From the NCBI RefSeq assembly GCF_023369855.1, contig NZ_JAMBPP010000004.1, forward strand, positions 124,001 through 188,000: DNA of 64,000 nucleotides, in the 5' to 3' direction. Under the pieces are notes generated by a model, which was not told the DNA's origin, ran no database searches, and was given only the letters and a program-made list of their open reading frames with translations. The first letter of the stretch is position 1; every line of letters starts with the position of its first letter. Of this stretch, positions 36,265 to 44,805 are shown piece by piece. The stretch is from Actinotalea alkalitolerans (lineage in GTDB: Bacteria; Actinomycetota; Actinomycetes; Actinomycetales; Cellulomonadaceae). Made by a program: the position numbers and the translations under genes.

Positions 36265-36945
36265 GTGGTAGCCAACGTCCCGCCCCCGCCCGCCGACCGC
36301 GTCGCCGACATCGCGGTCATGATCGTCGACGACCACGAGGTCGTCCGGCGAGGGATCGCCGAGGTGATCGACAGATCCGAGGGGATGGGGGTCGTCGCCG
36401 AGGCGGGGTCGGTCGCCGAGGGCATCCGTCGCGCGAGCCTGGTGCGGCCCCAGGTCATGCTGGTGGACCTGCAGCTGCCCGACGGGACAGGCATCGACCT
36501 GATGACCGCGCTGCGTGAGACCCTCCCGGACACCCGGGCGATCGTCCTGACGAGCTTCGACGACGACGACGCGCTCGCCGCGGCGCTCAAGGCGGGTGCG
36601 GCCGCGTACATCCTCAAGAGCGTGCGTGGCGCCGAGATCGCCGATGTCATCCGCTCGGTCGCGGCGGGGCGCACCCTGCTCGACGAGCGCACGGTCACCC
36701 GGCGTCGGGCCGACCACGACGACCCGACGGCCGACCTGACGCCCAGCGAGCGCAAGGTGCTCGACCTCATCGGCGAGGGGATGTCCAACCGGGAGATCGC
36801 CGAGCGGCTGGGTGTCGCGGAGAAGACCGTCAAGAACCACATCACCTCGCTGCTGTCCAAGATGGGGCTGCAGCGACGCACCCAGGTCGCGGCCTGGGTC
36901 GCCGGGCACAAGCACAGCGCCTGGCGGTCCGAGCCCGGCGACTGA
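36265..36945 (+). CDS. DevR/DosR-like NarL-family response regulator
   Basis: A 226-residue regulator. The receiver has the acidic pair VDDHE, phosphoacceptor Asp68 in VMLVDLQLPDG, Thr96 and Lys118. The LuxR-type DNA-binding domain has LTPSERKVLDLIGEGMSN and the recognition helix AEKTVKNHI, where Lys187, Lys190 and Asn191 correspond to the DNA-contacting Lys-Lys-Asn set of mycobacterial DosR. LLSKMGLQRRTQVA also matches DosR. It is convergent with the sensor kinase gene and probably its partner. A matching DosR-type box lies upstream of cydA. The GTG start is fixed by the -10 hexamer. Confidence 0.9.
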   Translation: MVANVPPPPADRVADIAVMIVDDHEVVRRGIAEVIDRSEGMGVVAEAGSVAEGIRRASLVRPQVMLVDLQLPDGTGIDLMTALRETLPDTRAIVLTSFDDDDALAAALKAGAAAYILKSVRGAEIADVIRSVAAGRTLLDERTVTRRRADHDDPTADLTPSERKVLDLIGEGMSNREIAERLGVAEKTVKNHITSLLSKMGLQRRTQVAAWVAGHKHSAWRSEPGD

Positions 36946-36971
36946 GCCTGCCCCGCGGACCTGCTCCACAG

Positions 36972-36991
36972 GGTGCCCGGTGGCGGGCGCC
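36972..36991. terminator. Hairpin between convergent regulator and kinase genes
   Basis: GGTGCCCG and CGGGCGCC (one G-T pair) form an 8-bp stem with a GTGG loop in the 47-base gap. There is no T run. It could serve as a bidirectional terminator. Confidence 0.5.
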
Positions 36992-36992
36992 G

Positions 36993-38693
36993 TCATCCGC
37001 GTGACAGCGGTGCCCTCCAGGCCAGCAGCGTGCCGCAGCCGCTCACCGCGGTGCCCAGGGTGAACGTGCCGCCGTGCCGTCGCGCCCGTGCCGCGAGGTT
37101 GTCGGTGCCCGATCGGCGGTCGCGCTCGGGGGGAAGGCCGGCGCCGTCGTCCTCGACCTCGACCGTGATGGTGCCCAACGGGCCCGTCCCGCTCAGGTCC
37201 ACCCGGACGGCCACGGACTGTGCCCGCGCGTGACGCGCGGCGTTGGCGAGCCCCTCTCGGACCACCGCGACGACGTCGTCGGCCATGTCCTCACCCACGC
37301 GGTCGTCGAGGGCGCCGGCGTCGCCGTCCTGCGCCTCGGCGGAGTCCAGCACCCTCTTGTCGACCGTGATGAGCAGGGACGGGGCGAAGCCCAGGCCGGT
37401 CCGCGCGAGGGAGGCCTCCCGTCGCAGCCGCTCGGCGAGGGGTGCGGTGGCGTCGGGGTCACGCAGGGCGTGGACGATCGACCGGATCTGCCGGACGGTC
37501 GAGTCCACGTTGTCGAGCGCGTCCTCGATGATGCCGGTCAGCTCGGCCGGGTCGACCCCCCTGGCAGCGCGGCGGCGCACCGTCTCGAGCTGCATCCCGG
37601 TGGCGAAGAGCTGCTGGATCGCCAGGTCGTGCAGGTCACGGGCGATACGCTCCCGCTCGTCCAGCAGGGCCGCGACGTCCTGGGCATGACGGGCCTCGGC
37701 GAGGACCAGCGCCAGGGCCGCCTGTCCGGCGTAGGCCTCGGCTGTGGCCAGGTCGCTCGGGGCGAAGGGCGGGCGCCCGACCCTGCGCAGCAGCATCAGC
37801 ACACCCACCCCGGTCTTGTCCGAGTGCATGGGTGCGTACATCGCGGGACCGAACTGGCGCAGGGCGTCCACACGCATGCTGCGCGAGCGGGACAGCGAGT
37901 CGACGACCAGACCGTTGCCGTCCCGCAGCACGGTCCGCGCCCGACCGTCGTGGGGCATCACGGTGCCGATCAGGTCGTCCGCGCCGGCGCCGTCGACGAT
38001 CTCCATGACCCAGCTGTCCTCGCCGACCCCTGGCAGGACGAGAGCCGCGGTGTCGGCCCCGGCGACCTCGCGCGAGGAGGCCGCGATCCGCGCCAGGACG
38101 TCCTCCTCCTCGGCGCCCGAGAGCAGCATCGTGGTGATCTCCTGGCCGGCGTGGAGCCAGCGCTCGCGCCGCTGCGCGTCCGCGTACATCTGGGCGTTCT
38201 GGATCGCCACGGCAGCCGCGGCGGCGAGGGTGATGACGGCCTCGTCGTCGTCGTCGGAGAACCCTCCGGGCTTCTCCGAGAGGTACAGGTAGCCGAAGAC
38301 CCTGTCACGAACCCGGACCGCGCTGCCCAGGAACGAGCCCATCGGGGGGTGGTTGGGAGGGAAGCCCTTGAAGCTGGGGTGCTGCATCAGGTCGTCGAGC
38401 CGCAGGGTGCCGTGCGGCGGGATGGCGCTCAGGACGCCGATCGCGTGCGGGGGGCGGCCCAGCATGGCTGCGAGCCGCTCGTCCATCCCGGTGTGCACGA
38501 AGGTCGTGGACCGGCCCCGGGAGTCGAGCACGTTGATCGCCGCGTAGCGCGCACCCGTCAGGTCGGCGCTCGCGCTGACGAACCGTTGCAGGACGGTGGG
38601 CAGGTCCAGGTCGGAGGCCAGGCCGAGGGCCGCCTGGAGCAGGTCCGCCGCGGCGAGCGAACCGTCGTGGTGGTCCGTGGGCGGTGGGGACAT
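36993..38693 (-). CDS. DevS/DosS-like two-GAF sensor histidine kinase
   Basis: A 566-residue soluble kinase with tandem GAF domains (about 27-175 and 195-340), a HisKA_3 dimerisation domain with the phospho-His in ARDLHDLAIQQLF, and a HATPase with EGLANAARHARA and DDGAGL. In GAF-1, FPPNHPPM (His115) and FGYLYLSEK (Tyr137, 22 residues later) align with the haem-ligating His149 and distal Tyr171 of DosS, so haem binding is likely. It is the last gene of the cyd operon: its ATG overlaps the cydC stop as TGATG. The regulator gene faces it. The signal (oxygen, NO, CO or redox) cannot be read from sequence. Confidence 0.88.
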   Translation of the reverse strand: MSPPPTDHHDGSLAAADLLQAALGLASDLDLPTVLQRFVSASADLTGARYAAINVLDSRGRSTTFVHTGMDERLAAMLGRPPHAIGVLSAIPPHGTLRLDDLMQHPSFKGFPPNHPPMGSFLGSAVRVRDRVFGYLYLSEKPGGFSDDDDEAVITLAAAAAVAIQNAQMYADAQRRERWLHAGQEITTMLLSGAEEEDVLARIAASSREVAGADTAALVLPGVGEDSWVMEIVDGAGADDLIGTVMPHDGRARTVLRDGNGLVVDSLSRSRSMRVDALRQFGPAMYAPMHSDKTGVGVLMLLRRVGRPPFAPSDLATAEAYAGQAALALVLAEARHAQDVAALLDERERIARDLHDLAIQQLFATGMQLETVRRRAARGVDPAELTGIIEDALDNVDSTVRQIRSIVHALRDPDATAPLAERLRREASLARTGLGFAPSLLITVDKRVLDSAEAQDGDAGALDDRVGEDMADDVVAVVREGLANAARHARAQSVAVRVDLSGTGPLGTITVEVEDDGAGLPPERDRRSGTDNLAARARRHGGTFTLGTAVSGCGTLLAWRAPLSRG

Positions 38694-40456
38694 CAGGACT
38701 CCTGGACTTCGGCGAGCCAGGCGTCGCGGTAGGGGGCGACGCCGTCGTGGTCACGGGCGACCAGCTCGCTGTGCCGACCTCGTGCTCGCACGGTACCGGT
38801 CCTGTCGAGCAGGATCACCTCGTCCGCCCCCTCGAGGCCTGCCAGCCGGTGCGTCACGACCAGGACTCCGCGGTCGGGTGTGAGCGTGCGGTCCAGGAGC
38901 GAGCGGAGCACGGCCTCGCCCCCGGTGTCGAGGTGCTCGGTGGGCTCGTCGACCAGCAGCAGGGGGGCCGGGCACAGCAGCGCCCGGGCGAGCAGCAGTC
39001 GTCGGCGCTCGCCGCCCGAGATGCGCGCGGCGTCGGCACCCAGGACGGTACCCAGGCCCTGGGGCAGCCCGGCGAGCCAGCGCCCGAGCCCCACCGAGGT
39101 CAGCGCGTCCAGCGCCTCGTCCGGGGTCACGTCACCACGACCGACCCGCAGGTTCTCCAGGATCGTGGTGTCGAAGACGTGGGCGTCCTCGGCGGTCATC
39201 GCGACGCGGCTCGCCGCGACCTCGCGAGGCAGGTCGGCCGGTGGGTCGCCGTCCAGGGTCAGGGTGCCGCCGACGGCCGGGAGCAGTCCGGCCAGGGTCA
39301 GCAGCAGGGTGGTCTTGCCCGCCCCGCTCGGCCCGACGACGGCGACCGTCCGTCCGGTGCTCAGGTCGAGGTCGAGGCCCGTGAGCAGCGGTTCCTGCCC
39401 GGGCCAGCCGCAGGCCAGCCCTCGGACCACGAGGCCGCGCCCGGGGGCTGCGGGAGGCATGGGGGCGGGCTGCGTGGCGGTCGGCTCCTGAGCGACCTCG
39501 TCCAGCAGCGACATGATCCGGCGGGCGGCCTGGCGTGAGCGCAGCACCTGCACGCCGGCCGCGGGCATCAACGACACCGCCTCGAAGGCCGCCAACGGGG
39601 TCAGCACGACCACCGCGAGCTCGACTGGCGTGAGCAGCCCCTGGGTCGTGGCCGGGACGGCGAGCGCGAGCGCGGCGAGCACCGCGAGACCGGTCGCGAG
39701 GGGTCCCGCTGCGGCCGCCAGCGCGGCGGGGCGGGCACCGGTGTCGGTCGCCCGCGCGAGGTCTGCCTCGACCCGCGCGAGCTCTCGGCGCAGGTCCGGG
39801 GTGCGCCCCTGGACGGTGAGCTCGCCTGCACCGTCGAGCAGGGCGAGGGTGACCGCGCTCATCTCGACCCGGGCGTGCGCGGTGAGTCGTTCGGTGGTCC
39901 GTGCGGCACGGACCGACCACCAAGGTGCGACGACGCCTGCCAGCACCAGGCAGCCGGCCAGTGCCAGCCCCGCCGTCGGCAGGAAGACCCCCAGGAGAAC
40001 CACGCTGCCCAGGCTGACGACCGCGGCCACCGCTGCCGGCAGCAGGCCCCGGACCACGACGTCGCCCACCGCGTCCACGTCGGCGCCGACCCGGGCGAGC
40101 AGGTCCCCGCGCCGCAGGGCCATCACGGGCTCGGTCCGCCCCACGGCGAGACGTCGGTAGATCTGCTCGCGCAGGGTGGCCATGCCGCGCAGCGCGACGT
40201 CGTGGGAGACGAGCCGTTCGACGTACCGCAGCAGCCCGCGGGAGATGCCGAAGGTGCGGACCGCGACCGCCGCGATGGACAGCTCCATCACCGGTGGCAT
40301 CTGCGAGGCACGCGCGATCAGCCAGGCCGACACGGCTGCCAGGGCCACGGCGCTGCCCAGCCCGCCCGCGCCCGCCAGCACCGCGAGGACCACGCGGCGC
40401 CAGGACACACCCAGCAGCAGGACGGCCCGCCAGAGCGGGTCCTGGCGGCCCGTCAC
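38693..40456 (-). CDS. cydC: Heterodimeric ABC exporter subunit CydC
   Basis: A 587-residue half-transporter with six transmembrane segments and a C-terminal ATPase. Walker A is GPSGAGKTTLL, the signature ISGGERRRLLLARALL, Walker B LLLVDEPTEHLD, and the switch His is in VTHRL. CydDC exports cysteine/glutathione or moves haem and is required to assemble cytochrome bd. GTG at 40456 overlaps the cydD stop as GTGA; a second GTG one codon upstream is possible. It is coupled to the kinase gene downstream. Confidence 0.93.
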   Translation of the reverse strand: MTGRQDPLWRAVLLLGVSWRRVVLAVLAGAGGLGSAVALAAVSAWLIARASQMPPVMELSIAAVAVRTFGISRGLLRYVERLVSHDVALRGMATLREQIYRRLAVGRTEPVMALRRGDLLARVGADVDAVGDVVVRGLLPAAVAAVVSLGSVVLLGVFLPTAGLALAGCLVLAGVVAPWWSVRAARTTERLTAHARVEMSAVTLALLDGAGELTVQGRTPDLRRELARVEADLARATDTGARPAALAAAAGPLATGLAVLAALALAVPATTQGLLTPVELAVVVLTPLAAFEAVSLMPAAGVQVLRSRQAARRIMSLLDEVAQEPTATQPAPMPPAAPGRGLVVRGLACGWPGQEPLLTGLDLDLSTGRTVAVVGPSGAGKTTLLLTLAGLLPAVGGTLTLDGDPPADLPREVAASRVAMTAEDAHVFDTTILENLRVGRGDVTPDEALDALTSVGLGRWLAGLPQGLGTVLGADAARISGGERRRLLLARALLCPAPLLLVDEPTEHLDTGGEAVLRSLLDRTLTPDRGVLVVTHRLAGLEGADEVILLDRTGTVRARGRHSELVARDHDGVAPYRDAWLAEVQES

Positions 40457-42171
40457 CACGCACCCCCGTCGTGGGGTGGGCCGGTGGTCGACGTGCGCGG
40501 TCTGCCGGCCACGGCCACGACGGCGTCGGCGGCCTGTCGCAGGGACGCGCGGTGGGTGACCACGAGCACGGTGCGGCCCCCTTCGCGTGCGGCCTCGATC
40601 ACCTGCCGCACCGTCGCGTCGCCGTCGCTGCCCAGGTGGGCGCTCGGTTCGTCGAGCACCACGAGCTGGGCGTCACCCAGCAGCGCCCGGCTGAGCGCGA
40701 CGCGCTGACGCTGCCCCAGGCTCAGGCCGGCGCCACCCTGCCCGACCGCGGTACCCCACCCGAGCGGGAGCGCCGCGACGACCTCGGCCAGACCGGTCAG
40801 CTCCGCGACCCGGCCGAGCTCCCGGCGGTCGGTGCGGCGACCAGCGGTGACCAGGTCCTCGATCGTCCCGGGGGTCAGCACCGGACGCTGCGGGACCCAG
40901 GCGATCTGCTCCCACCAGGTGCCGGGGTCCACGTCTGCGAGGTCGATGGCCGGGGTGTCGAGGGCGTCGCCCGCGGGGAGCACCTGGACCGTGCCCGTGT
41001 CCCGGTCGCCGAGGGGTATCAGCCCGAGCAGCACCCCCAGGGCAGTGGACTTGCCCGCGCCGTTGGGTCCCACCAGGGCGGTCACCGTTCCCGGGAGGAG
41101 GTCCAGGTCGAGCCCGGCCGGGGCGAGCGCGTCGCGGTCCGGCGCGTCCACACCCAGATCGCGGACCCTGACCGTGCTGCTCCGCAGGTCGGGGGCCGAG
41201 ATGGTCCCACGGACCGGGAGCGGCTGCTCGAGGACGTCGAAGGTCTGCTGGGCCGCGGCGACGCCGTCGGCCGAGGCGTGGAAGTGGGCGCCGACCTGGC
41301 GCAGGGGCAGGTAGACCTCAGGGGCCAGGACCAGCACCGCGAGGGCGGTGGTCAGGTCGAGGTGACCGTAGACGAGGCGGAAGCCGACCCCCACGGCGAC
41401 CAGGGCGACCGACAGGGTCGTCAACAGCTCCAGGACCATGCCGGACAGGAACGCGATCCGCAGCGTGCCCATGGTCGCCGAGCGGTGCGCCTCTCCCAGG
41501 GCTCGCACCCGGTCCGCCGGTCCGCGCTCGCGGCCCAGGGCGCGCAGCGTGGGCAGCCCCGCCACGAGATCGAGGACCTGATGCCCCAGACGCTGCATGA
41601 CCTCCAGGCGCCGGCTGGCGTGGCCCTGGGTGAGCAGGCCGACCAGGACCATGAAGACCGGCACCAGAGGGATCGTCACCGCGATCGTCACCGCGGCGAC
41701 CCAGTCCAGACCCAGCACGACGGCGAGCGCCGCGGGGGTCACGGTCACGGCGAGCAGCAGCTGGGGGAGGTACCGCACGAAGTAGGGCTCGAGCGCGTCG
41801 AGACCGCGGGTCGCCAGCGTCGCCACCGTCGGCCCGTTCCCCGAGATCCACCGCGGCCCCAGACCCACCGCGTGACCGACCACCTGCGCACGGAGCTCGG
41901 CGATGGTCCGGGTCGCGGCCCGGTGGGCGTAGCGCTCCTGGACCGCCGTGACGAGCACCCGCGCACCGATGACCAGTGCCAGCAGCCCGACCGTGGGGGC
42001 GACGTCCGGCCAGCGCGACACCCCGGTGACGACCGGCGCGAGCGCCGCGGCCAGCAGGAGTGCCTGGGCCACCACGAGACCGGCGGTCGCCGCGCCGAGG
42101 CCGGCGGTGAGCAGGACGTAGCGTCGTGCTGCGCGGGCCCTGCGGAGCAGCCGGGGGTCGAGCGGTCTCAC
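40453..42171 (-). CDS. cydD: Heterodimeric ABC exporter subunit CydD
   Basis: A 572-residue partner of CydC. It has six hydrophobic helices in the first 310 residues, with PVFMVLVGLLTQGHASRR in the first intracellular loop region, then the nucleotide-binding domain: GPNGAGKSTALG (Walker A), LSLGQRQRVALSRALL (signature) and LVVLDEPSAHLG (Walker B). GTG at 42171 overlaps the cydB stop by four bases, which fixes the start. It is cotranscribed with cydAB. Confidence 0.93.
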   Translation of the reverse strand: MRPLDPRLLRRARAARRYVLLTAGLGAATAGLVVAQALLLAAALAPVVTGVSRWPDVAPTVGLLALVIGARVLVTAVQERYAHRAATRTIAELRAQVVGHAVGLGPRWISGNGPTVATLATRGLDALEPYFVRYLPQLLLAVTVTPAALAVVLGLDWVAAVTIAVTIPLVPVFMVLVGLLTQGHASRRLEVMQRLGHQVLDLVAGLPTLRALGRERGPADRVRALGEAHRSATMGTLRIAFLSGMVLELLTTLSVALVAVGVGFRLVYGHLDLTTALAVLVLAPEVYLPLRQVGAHFHASADGVAAAQQTFDVLEQPLPVRGTISAPDLRSSTVRVRDLGVDAPDRDALAPAGLDLDLLPGTVTALVGPNGAGKSTALGVLLGLIPLGDRDTGTVQVLPAGDALDTPAIDLADVDPGTWWEQIAWVPQRPVLTPGTIEDLVTAGRRTDRRELGRVAELTGLAEVVAALPLGWGTAVGQGGAGLSLGQRQRVALSRALLGDAQLVVLDEPSAHLGSDGDATVRQVIEAAREGGRTVLVVTHRASLRQAADAVVAVAGRPRTSTTGPPHDGGAW

Positions 42172-43187
42172 CGGCGCAGGAAGGTGAGCCCGGTGTGCTC
42201 GGGGATCTGCTCGGCCGTGATGCGCTTGCGGAACACCCAGTAGGTCCAGCCCTGGTACAGCAGGACGACCGGCGTGAGGATCACGGCGACCCAGGTCATC
42301 ACGGTCAGCGTGTAGTCGGTCGACGACGCGTTGTCGACGGTGAGGGAGTTCGCGGGGTCGAGCGCGGGCATCACGTCGGGGAACATCGACCCGAAGATCA
42401 GCACCACGGCTGCGACGATCGCGACCGCGGACCACGTGAAGGCGATGCCTTCACGACCCACGCGGGTCGCGCGGACGGTACCCAGCAGCGCGACGGCTGC
42501 GACCCCGGTGGCCAGCCAGGTCCACGTCGTGGAGTAGGCGATCTGGGTCCACACCGCCCAGCCCCCCGCGACCAGGAGCGTGACGACCGACAGCCGTGTC
42601 GCCAGTGCCCGGGCACGGTGGCGCACGTCGCCGTCCGTCTTGAGTGCCAGGAAGATCGCCCCGTGGGTCAGGAAGATCAGGAAGGTGGTCGCGCCGCCCA
42701 GCAGCGCGTACGGGTTGAGCAGGTCGAAGAAGGTCCCGACGTACTGGTGGTCGGCGTCCAGGTGGACCCCGCGCACCAGGTTGCCGAAGGCCACGCCCCA
42801 CAGGATCGCCGGCACGACCGACCCGAAGACGATCGCGCGGTCGGCCCAGGCGCGCCAGCCGTCGTCGTCGATCTTGCCGCGCCACTCGAAGGCGACGACG
42901 CGCACGATCAGGGCCACGAGGATGAGCAGCAGCGGGATGTAGAAGCCCGAGAACATCGTGGCGTACCACTCGGGGAAGGCCGCGAAGGTCGCGCCGCCCG
43001 CGGTCAGCAGCCACACCTCGTTGCCGTCCCAGACCGGGCCGATCGTGTTGATCAGGACCCGACGGTCCTTGTCCTTGCGGCCGAGCACGGGCAGCAGCAT
43101 GCCCACACCGAAGTCGAAGCCCTCCAGGACGAGGTAGCCGGTCCACAGGACGGCGATCAGCAGGAACCAGATGACGGCGAGGTCCAT
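42168..43187 (-). CDS. cydB: Cytochrome bd ubiquinol/menaquinol oxidase subunit II
   Basis: A 339-residue membrane subunit with eight to nine helices. GYLVLEGFDFGVGMLLP near the N-terminus and GPVWDGNEVWLL are the family signatures, and WRGKIDDDGWRAW is a cytosolic loop. With CydA it reduces oxygen to water using quinol without proton pumping. The ATG at 43187 has GAGGGG as RBS and lies 11 bases after cydA. Confidence 0.96.
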   Translation of the reverse strand: MDLAVIWFLLIAVLWTGYLVLEGFDFGVGMLLPVLGRKDKDRRVLINTIGPVWDGNEVWLLTAGGATFAAFPEWYATMFSGFYIPLLLILVALIVRVVAFEWRGKIDDDGWRAWADRAIVFGSVVPAILWGVAFGNLVRGVHLDADHQYVGTFFDLLNPYALLGGATTFLIFLTHGAIFLALKTDGDVRHRARALATRLSVVTLLVAGGWAVWTQIAYSTTWTWLATGVAAVALLGTVRATRVGREGIAFTWSAVAIVAAVVLIFGSMFPDVMPALDPANSLTVDNASSTDYTLTVMTWVAVILTPVVLLYQGWTYWVFRKRITAEQIPEHTGLTFLRR

Positions 43188-43198
43188 CGTCGCCCCTC

Positions 43199-44698
43199 TC
43201 AGTACGCGAAGGACAGCGGGCGGTCGGGCGCGCCGTCGTCGGTGGGGTCGGTGTCGTCCGGGCCGGTGCGACGGGCTTCGGGGCTCGGGTCGGTCTCGGT
43301 GTCGGCCACACCCTCGCTGGCGTACCGCTTCATCAGCCGGAACCACACCACGGCGAGCACTCCGTACAACGCGGTGAAGGTGACCATGGAGCCGATCACG
43401 CTCCCCGCCCCGACCGAGGTCGAGACACCGCGCATCGTCAGCAGCCACACGCCGTCGACCCCGGTGGGGTCAGGGTTGGGGTGCACGACCCAGGGCTGAC
43501 GGCCCATCTCGGTGAAGATCCAGCCGAAGGCCGAGGCGAGGAAGGGCATCGGGATCGCGATGATCCCCAGCACGCCGAACCAGCGCTTGTCGGTCACGCG
43601 GCGACCGCGGGTGAGCCAGAGCGAGGCTGCCGCGAGCAGGGCGCTGCCCAGGCCCAGGCCGATCATGAGCCGGAAGCTCCAATAGGTCACAGCAAGGTTG
43701 GGGACGTAGTCGACGTCGGAGCCGTAGAGCTCCTCGTAGCGGGCCTGGAGGTCGTCGACCCCCTCGACGGTCGCGGTGAAGTCGCCCGAGGCGAGGAACG
43801 AGGTCAGGCCGGGGATCTCGATGAGGTGGGTCACCCCGGAGCAGTCGTTGGCGAGGTCACCCACGGCCAGGATCGAGAAGGACGCACCGTCCTCGGTGGC
43901 GCACAGCCCCTCGGCGGCGGCCATCTTCATCGGCTGCTGCTGGAACATGATCTTGGCCTGCCAGTCACCTGTCCCCGCGACGGCGATGCCGGCCACGAGC
44001 ATGGTCACCAGGCCCAACCGGACCGCCGGGCGGTAGACGTCACGAGCGAGGTCCAGGTCGCCGCGACGCGATGCGCGGACCATCCACCACGCGCCGATCC
44101 CCGCCACGAAGGTGCCCGACGTGAGGAAGGCCGCGGCGATCGTGTGGGGGAACGCGGCCAGCAACGTCGGGTTGGTCAGGACCGCGACGATGTCGACCAT
44201 CTCGGCCCGACCGGTCTCGAGGTTGAAGATGGCACCGACGGGGTGCTGCATCCACGAGTTGGCGGCCAGGATGAAGTACGCCGAGAGGTTGGTGGCGATC
44301 GCGACCGCCCAGATGCATGCGAGGTGGATCTTCTTGGGCAGCTTGTCCCAGCCGAAGATCCACAGCCCCAGGAAGGTCGACTCGACGAAGAACGCCGCGA
44401 GGGCCTCCATCGCGAGCGGGGCGCCGAAGACGTCCCCGACGAAGCGGGAGTACTCCGACCAGTTCATCCCGAACTGGAACTCCTGGACGATCCCGGTGGC
44501 CACGCCGATCGCGAAGTTGATCAGCATGAGCTTGCCGAAGAACTTGGTCAGGCGCAGCCAGCGCTCGTTCCCGGTCCGGTACCAGGCCGTCTGCATGATC
44601 GCGACGAGCGGTGCGAGCCCGATCGTCAGCGGCACGAAGATGAAGTGGTAGACGGTCGTGATGCCGAACTGCCAGCGGGCCAGCTCGAGTGCTTCCAC
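43199..44698 (-). CDS. cydA: Cytochrome bd ubiquinol/menaquinol oxidase subunit I
   Basis: A 499-residue haem-bearing subunit. The axial His of haem b595 is in TTVYHFIFVPLTIG (residue 18). FQFGMNWSEYSRFVGD and GWIFTEMGRQPW (the GRQPW quinol-site signature) are intact. The Q-loop is short, as in Gram-positive enzymes. About 45 polar C-terminal residues extend past the last helix. The GTG at 44698 follows AGGAGA. The promoter has TACCGT as -10 with a DosR-type box centred near -41. It heads cydABDC plus a DevS-like kinase. Confidence 0.96.
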   Translation of the reverse strand: MEALELARWQFGITTVYHFIFVPLTIGLAPLVAIMQTAWYRTGNERWLRLTKFFGKLMLINFAIGVATGIVQEFQFGMNWSEYSRFVGDVFGAPLAMEALAAFFVESTFLGLWIFGWDKLPKKIHLACIWAVAIATNLSAYFILAANSWMQHPVGAIFNLETGRAEMVDIVAVLTNPTLLAAFPHTIAAAFLTSGTFVAGIGAWWMVRASRRGDLDLARDVYRPAVRLGLVTMLVAGIAVAGTGDWQAKIMFQQQPMKMAAAEGLCATEDGASFSILAVGDLANDCSGVTHLIEIPGLTSFLASGDFTATVEGVDDLQARYEELYGSDVDYVPNLAVTYWSFRLMIGLGLGSALLAAASLWLTRGRRVTDKRWFGVLGIIAIPMPFLASAFGWIFTEMGRQPWVVHPNPDPTGVDGVWLLTMRGVSTSVGAGSVIGSMVTFTALYGVLAVVWFRLMKRYASEGVADTETDPSPEARRTGPDDTDPTDDGAPDRPLSFAY

Positions 44699-44740
44699 GT
44701 GGGTCTCCTGAACGGTGCCGCGGACCAGTCTGTCCCTCGA

Positions 44741-44746
44741 ACGGTA
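44741..44746 (-). promoter_or_regulatory. cydA -10 hexamer TACCGT
   Basis: TACCGT on the minus strand, 43 bases before the GTG. There is no -35 match at 17 bases, as expected for an activator-dependent promoter. The inferred transcription start is near 44735. Confidence 0.5.
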
Positions 44747-44767
44747 GGAACCCGTCCCGCGAGCGGC

Positions 44768-44785
44768 TTGGGACCTAGGTCCCTC
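44768..44785 (-). promoter_or_regulatory. DosR/DevR-type box upstream of cydA
   Basis: TTGGGACCTAGGTCCCTC holds the perfect palindrome GGGACCTAGGTCCC (44770-44783), that is GGGAC-N4-GTCCC, the core of the mycobacterial DosR box. Its centre lies about 41 bases upstream of the inferred cydA start, the usual distance for DosR activation. The DevR-like regulator that could bind it is encoded at 36265-36945. Confidence 0.65.
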
Positions 44786-44788
44786 TTT

Positions 44789-44805
44789 GGTGACGAGACG
44801 TCACC
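44789..44805. promoter_or_regulatory. Second dyad beside the DosR-type box
   Basis: GGTGACG and CGTCACC are perfect 7-bp arms around AGA, five bases beyond the GGGAC box. It looks like a protein-binding site for another factor acting on cydA or rne; the binder is unknown. Confidence 0.45.

Follow-up and report, generated by a model that had tools for sequence, protein, structure and literature searches.

In this study, we report a cytochrome bd (cyd) operon whose last gene encodes a DosS-like sensor kinase, found in a stretch of 64,000 nucleotides (64 kb) from the 4.37 Mb genome of Actinotalea alkalitolerans; this whole stretch is referred to below as the window. The gene for a DosR-like response regulator converges on the kinase gene, and a palindromic box resembling the DosR target lies upstream of cydA. 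We consider, with a probability of about 0.75, that a gas-sensing kinase is encoded within the cyd operon itself and that its regulator activates the cydA promoter from the box near position -42. The features concerned are as follows.

44790-44804, minus strand: inverted repeat GTGACGTCTCGTCAC upstream of the box, the two centres being 20.5 bp apart, a possible secondary low-affinity site
44770-44783, minus strand: predicted regulator box GGGACCTAGGTCCC, its centre 78 bp from the cydA start codon and about 42 bp from the predicted transcription start, upstream of both
44741-44746, minus strand: predicted -10 element TACCGT, with the predicted transcription start at about 44734, placed by the conserved spacing in relatives
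44698-43199, minus strand: cydA, cytochrome bd subunit I (PF01654, 2e-163), with a GTG start codon
43187-42168, minus strand: cydB, cytochrome bd subunit II (TIGR00203, 1e-105)
42171-40453, minus strand: cydD, thiol reductant ABC exporter subunit (TIGR02857, 550 bits, cut-off 435)
40459-38693, minus strand: cydC, thiol reductant ABC exporter subunit (TIGR02868, 568 bits, cut-off 329)
38693-36993, minus strand: DosS-like kinase with GAF-A (His115, Tyr137), GAF-B, HisKA_3 (His355) and HATPase
36265-36945, plus strand: DosR-like response regulator of the NarL family, convergent with the kinase gene and 9 bp behind mutM

Operon layout, sensor kinase and response regulator

The packing of cydA, cydB, cydD, cydC and a two-GAF kinase gene on one strand had been recognised in a preliminary description of this DNA, with which our coordinates and overlaps agree. 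Read directly from the letters, cydB and cydD overlap in GTGA (42171-42168), cydD and cydC in GTGA (40456-40453), provided that the second of two GTG codons is the cydC start, and cydC and the kinase gene in TGATG (38695-38691). The regulator gene faces the kinase gene, as also described earlier, and is probably expressed with mutM and not with cyd, because its listed start lies 9 bp past the mutM stop codon.

DevS and DevR of Mycobacterium tuberculosis (DosS and DosR) are the best Protein Data Bank matches of the kinase and the regulator, and the earlier assignment of both proteins to the DosS and DosR types is supported by sequence. GAF-A of the kinase matches the DevS structure 4ynr (1.4e-33), the ATPase domain is similar to chains of DevS and DosT, and the second GAF domain, HisKA_3 and HATPase were all found by domain search. 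His115, in FPPNHPPM, aligns with the proximal haem residue His149 of DosS, and Tyr137, in FGYLYL, with the distal Tyr171; where DosS has Glu87, the window kinase has Thr. The placing of the DosS residue numbers on this alignment, that of Glu87 included, is in part our assumption. The roles of His149, Tyr171 and Glu87 in DosS are described in PMC4082495.

The best solved relative of the regulator is DevR (3c3w, 1.5e-53). The protein has the receiver Asp in VDLQLPDG and a NarL-type helix-turn-helix with the unchanged DosR recognition helix AEKTVKN, which we take to be the helix that touches DNA, the choice of contacting residues being likewise our assumption. AEKTVKN is present in 61 of 65 regulator matches; two have AEKTIKN, one ends before the helix and one (L094) is an unrelated regulator. 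In the own genome a single kinase of this type was found at E≤1e-3 and a single regulator at E≤1e-45, so that the pairing is unambiguous at these thresholds.

The kinase is present in all 19 genomes of the genus, and its named relatives at 81-83% identity belong to Actinotalea, family Cellulomonadaceae. At E≤1e-60, 201 of 396 genomes sampled from the order contain it, a count that includes weaker, unlinked relatives. Among loci selected by kinase match, not at random, cyd stands beside the kinase in 33 of 40 from the family (5 of the 7 exceptions had been chosen as second kinase copies) and in 31 of 40 from the order (the 40 include one empty placeholder), the latter spread over families f1, f3, f9, f11, f12, f13, f15 and f20. 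The usual gene order is rne / cydA-B-D-C-kinase / regulator-mutM-rnc, and named genera with the block are Actinotalea, Cellulomonas and Actinomycetaceae such as Actinomyces, Arcanobacterium, Gleimia and Winkia. A close regulator (77-100% identity) was found in 10 of 10 block-bearing genomes sampled against 0 of 33 others, in which the best match was 52% or there was none at E≤1e-45. In a quick kinase tree with long branches, the kinases track families, 10 changes being needed for 10 groups where the minimum is 9. Given this recurrence across families and the family-following tree, the linkage of cyd and kinase, which had first been called unusual, looks old and common in the order and not peculiar to this genome.

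Outside the order, cyd stands beside a kinase of 39-41% identity with a convergent regulator in Yinghuangia soli (L244) and Streptomyces sp. SID3343 (L250); the former has a Rex operator with one mismatch at cydA. At another locus (L073, genome G181), two tandem DosS-like kinases adjoin the regulator, and no cyd genes were seen within the fetched stretch.

The cydA promoter and an apparent exchange of its control with Rex

The box GGGAC-N4-GTCCC had been placed at 44770-44783, and GGGACCTAGGTCCC is present there, upstream of cydA. The accompanying distance of about 41 bp between box centre and cydA start was rejected, as the measured distance to the cydA GTG is 78 bp. In the first family set, all 34 cydA promoters have the box (no mismatch in 21, one in 12 and two in 1), and in all 34 TANNNT begins 36-38 bases past the first box base. 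Among all linked cydA promoters, 53 of 66 combine the box (≤2 mismatches) with TANNNT at 36-38 (no mismatch in 31, one in 19, two in 3), whereas mononucleotide shuffles of the same 66 promoters gave this combination 0.2 times on average and at most twice. Conserved columns in the 53 box promoters are almost confined to the box, whose consensus centre is C-W-W-G.

CydA was also searched in 48 genomes of the same family, mostly chosen for having no close kinase match, and the best 30 of 52 matches were taken as loci; genera such as g8, g13 and g24 lie outside this set. Three of the 30 (L175, L177 and L180) proved to be linked and joined the linked set, leaving 27 unlinked promoters, whose non-linkage rests on the absence of a close kinase match in the genome and not on reading of the downstream genes. 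Within this selection, the box with -10 spacing was found at 0 of 27 unlinked against 53 of 66 linked promoters, and a Rex operator (≤3 mismatches) at 24 of 27 against 2 of 66 (L075 and L089); L176, L179 and L181, all unlinked, have neither. No Rex operator was found at the window cydA promoter at ≤4 mismatches. Judged from these promoter sequences, it appears that Rex and a DosSR-type gas sensor have changed places in the control of cyd. The Rex-type domain PF06971 scored over its cut-off in the own genome and in 30 of 37 genomes tested, and also in 7 of 14 control genomes, so that this search is no proof of Rex; if the PF06971 protein is Rex, the switch lies in the promoter and not in the presence of Rex. 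Four Cellulomonas-type loci (L075, L089, L210 and L217) have the box plus a Rex-like repeat (2-3 mismatches), which at L075 and L210 sits between the box and the -10 element.

The genome scan proposed earlier for the box gave a divided answer. GGGACCTAGGTCCC is the sole exact match to GGGACNNNNGTCCC within the 64-kb window, where matches at ≤2 mismatches (71) are rarer than the shuffle mean (131), but genome-wide the bare pattern has 24 matches and its reversed control 18. This near-chance count would suit a chance palindrome in GC-rich DNA, an explanation that is contradicted by the footprint across families (53/66 against 0/27) and that we regard as hardly credible. With the WW centre, GGGACCWWGGTCCC has 2 exact sites in the own genome (control 0), 31 across the 19 genomes of the genus (control 0) and, at ≤1 mismatch, 15 in the own genome (control 3). 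What speaks for the box is its WW centre, its spacing to the -10 element and its footprint across relatives, the last being the strong evidence. A second DosS-like kinase copy (L112, G001:C480; 58% identity) also has a box without mismatch, 52 bp upstream of the listed start, with no -10 element at the usual spacing.

If TANNNT is the -10 element, the predicted box centre would fall near -42, where an activator would sit; as far as sequence can tell, a DosR-type target box GGGAC-N4-GTCCC is found near -35 at the cydA promoter. The regulator might instead repress cyd from the box under plentiful oxygen, as mycobacterial cydB is reportedly repressed by RegX3 in air (PMC7719681). We think this improbable: a centre near -42 and a near-fixed distance to the -10 element suit activation, and in M. 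tuberculosis the start-adjacent DevR site, which is used for induction, overlaps -35 (PMC3029386).

The upstream repeat was found in part of the relatives: 28 of the 53 box promoters have TGAC-N5-GTCA (≤1 mismatch) 19-20 bases ahead of the first box base; for versions of the repeat with N4 and N6, no offset reached three or more of these promoters. A CRP/FNR or Rex reading of GTGAC-N5-GTCAC was judged unlikely from the spacing that we presume for such sites. The repeat could be a second, weaker site of the regulator, by analogy with M. tuberculosis DevR, which has a site overlapping -35 plus further, closely packed sites (PMC3029386).

Other candidate targets, loss of the haem domain and proposed mechanism

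Four of the 15 GGGACCWWGGTCCC sites of the own genome (≤1 mismatch) have TANNNT at 36-38, namely those at cydA, an ArsR-type gene, feoA (a short open reading frame before feoB, named by eye) and a MarR-type gene; the second exact site of this genome (L012/L131) has no TANNNT at 36-38. Of the 31 exact sites in the genus, 7 are at cydA loci and the other 24 loci were read singly. TANNNT at 36-38 was seen in four of these 24 (L132, at cydA; L124; L126; and L129, YwiC-like) and at 39 in L115 and L134. L124 and L126 look alike by eye, and a 70-residue fragment of L124 had no Pfam match.

At the feoA promoter L287 (G000:C4:11584-11597), the box is accompanied by an iron-box-like repeat, which we take to be such from its motif, and by a -10 element at the same spacing. 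FeoB at E≤1e-60 was found in 9 of the 19 genomes, with 11 matches. Six of the eight FeoB loci at 58-100% identity have the box (≤2 mismatches) just before the iron-box-like repeat, and four of these six also have TANNNT at the spacing; the remaining two, L300 and L301, have no box. The three matches at 39-42% show weak box matches, with TANNNT inside the iron-box-like repeat as seen by eye. From these promoter sequences, feoAB is a possible second target of the regulator in part of the genus. Upstream of atpB (PF00119; L308-L326, 19 genomes), the box (≤1 mismatch) was found in 10 genomes (9 WW-centred, 1 exact without WW), a Rex site (≤3 mismatches) in 9 and both in 4; the own genome has a Rex-like site with 3 mismatches there and no box at ≤1 mismatch. 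As the -10 spacing was not seen at the four atpB loci inspected, the box sequences make atp only a lead as a regulator target.

Among 80 extracted kinases, the haem His is kept in 64; nine have a GAF-A-length sequence without it (including L158, although its match begins at residue 190) and seven have no GAF-A. The kinases without GAF-A lie in cyd operons (L080-L083, L160, L161 and L165) that keep the box and -10 spacing, in genera g12, g21 and g22 of family f1 and g72 of f13. In family f20, the kinases L153, L154 and L168 are of GAF-A length with the haem His replaced in 3 of 3, and both loci whose stretch includes cydA keep the box and -10. On the kinase tree, the domain loss needs at least two changes, and a three-state character needs six.

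Several observations weigh against the reading that we favour. The box at -10 spacing is missing at 13 of the 66 linked promoters: L175, L177 and L180 (g3), L152 and L167 (f15), and L141-L145, L171, L172 and L174 (f3, Actinomycetaceae-type); the named Actinomyces and Arcanobacterium cydA promoters likewise are without it. The 27 unlinked promoters come from the best CydA matches only, and the shuffle controls ignore relatedness among genomes. The upstream repeat has a spacing of 5 bases, not 4, and may belong to another factor. At 13 of the 27 unlinked promoters (again from the best 30 of 52 matches), the box (≤1 mismatch) occurs together with a Rex operator, and at 11 of them, from g5, g15 and g16, it is WW-centred; at L178, L182-L186 and L188-L192 it lies directly upstream of the operator. 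Since a close regulator is absent in these genera (closest match 46-47%), another protein may read the box there. Extended to the window, this would mean that a different NarL-family regulator binds the box and that the linked pair, though encoded nearby, acts on other targets, which seems to us quite unlikely: the own genome has no second regulator at E≤1e-45, and the box with -10 spacing tracks the linked block (53/66 against 0/27).

The absence of the haem His or of the whole GAF-A from 16 of the 80 kinases also counts against a gas sensor, and gas sensing is therefore not general. The retention of the box and -10 spacing beside such kinases in f1, f13 and f20 would fit a linked regulator that drives cyd from the box under a kinase sensing a redox or respiratory-chain signal, as would the activity of the M. 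tuberculosis kinase domain by itself (PMC4082495). For the window kinase, which retains His115, Tyr137 and strong GAF-A similarity to DevS, we hold this to be unlikely, while giving it more weight than any other alternative considered here.

Under the favoured reading of a gas-sensing kinase, haem would be bound in GAF-A via His115. As in DosS and DosT, from which polarity and signal are taken over, oxygen-bound haem would keep the kinase off, and loss of oxygen, nitric oxide (NO) or carbon monoxide (CO) would switch it on. The kinase would then phosphorylate the convergent regulator, which would bind GGGACC-WW-GGTCCC centred near -42, perhaps aided by the weaker site 20.5 bp upstream, and recruit RNA polymerase to the cydA promoter. 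If the five genes are cotranscribed, CydABDC and the kinase would rise together, giving positive feedback via the kinase, while the regulator would be made from the mutM/rnc side. Of the local feedback loop in the preliminary description, only the branch through the kinase is thus retained, since the regulator gene, 9 bp behind mutM, is not part of the cyd operon.

A broader history can be put forward tentatively, at somewhat less than even odds: an ancient cyd-dedicated relative of DosSR would have been the ancestral cyd switch of the order, a self-made gas sensor and self-reinforcing hypoxia switch. In some lineages this switch and the NADH sensor Rex would have changed places at cyd and, in Actinotalea, possibly also at the ATP synthase operon. 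In others the haem domain would have been discarded and the promoter wiring kept, in which case a kinase left with GAF-B would have to respond to a different signal. Sister genera, with exchange between gas and NADH (Rex) sensing at one promoter within a family and haem-domain loss with the box kept, would allow the role of GAF-B and the reason for the differing cyd signals to be compared directly.

Comparison with known systems

The DosS/DosT-DosR (DevS-DevR) system of Mycobacterium shares with the pair described here GAF-A with haem His and distal Tyr, GAF-B and HisKA_3 in the kinase, and in the regulator the NarL type, the recognition helix, the outer half-sites GGGAC-N4-GTCCC and a -35-adjacent site with others close by. 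The M. tuberculosis DosR box has the centre T-WW-A, whereas the centre here is C-WW-G. The arrangement also differs from that of Mycobacterium: the cyd operon ends with the kinase gene, towards which the regulator gene reads from the mutM side. The mycobacterial dormancy regulon comprises about 48 genes (PMC3029386), SenX3-RegX3 and CRP are named as regulators of mycobacterial cyd (PMC7719681), and a study of CO in M. smegmatis lists Cyd separately from DosR-regulated proteins (PMC8125079).

OsdK-OsdR of Streptomyces coelicolor is a DosSR-type pair outside mycobacteria whose palindrome fits the DevR site; it differs in its consensus AGGGCCGATCGGCCCT and in being encoded in its own osdR-osdK operon, and the terms cydA and cytochrome are absent from the main text of the paper (PMC5069765). 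In Streptomyces, the same cydABCD operon is controlled via TTGTGAANNNNTTCACAA by Rex, a repressor sensing NADH/NAD+, as is atp (PMC5355995); Rex differs as a one-protein redox repressor. HrrSA of Corynebacterium glutamicum also exerts haem-tied two-component control of terminal oxidases, and responds to haem (PMC7337898). In the literature on cyd regulation and linkage that we covered, partial and with subscription journals mostly outside it, no cyd operon with a linked DosS-like kinase was recognised. The parts are of known kinds and their wiring is a variant that appears to be new: a DosSR-type sensor is placed inside the operon of a low-oxygen oxidase, in environmental relatives of mycobacteria, where sensor, promoter and output form a small wired unit that can be tested together.

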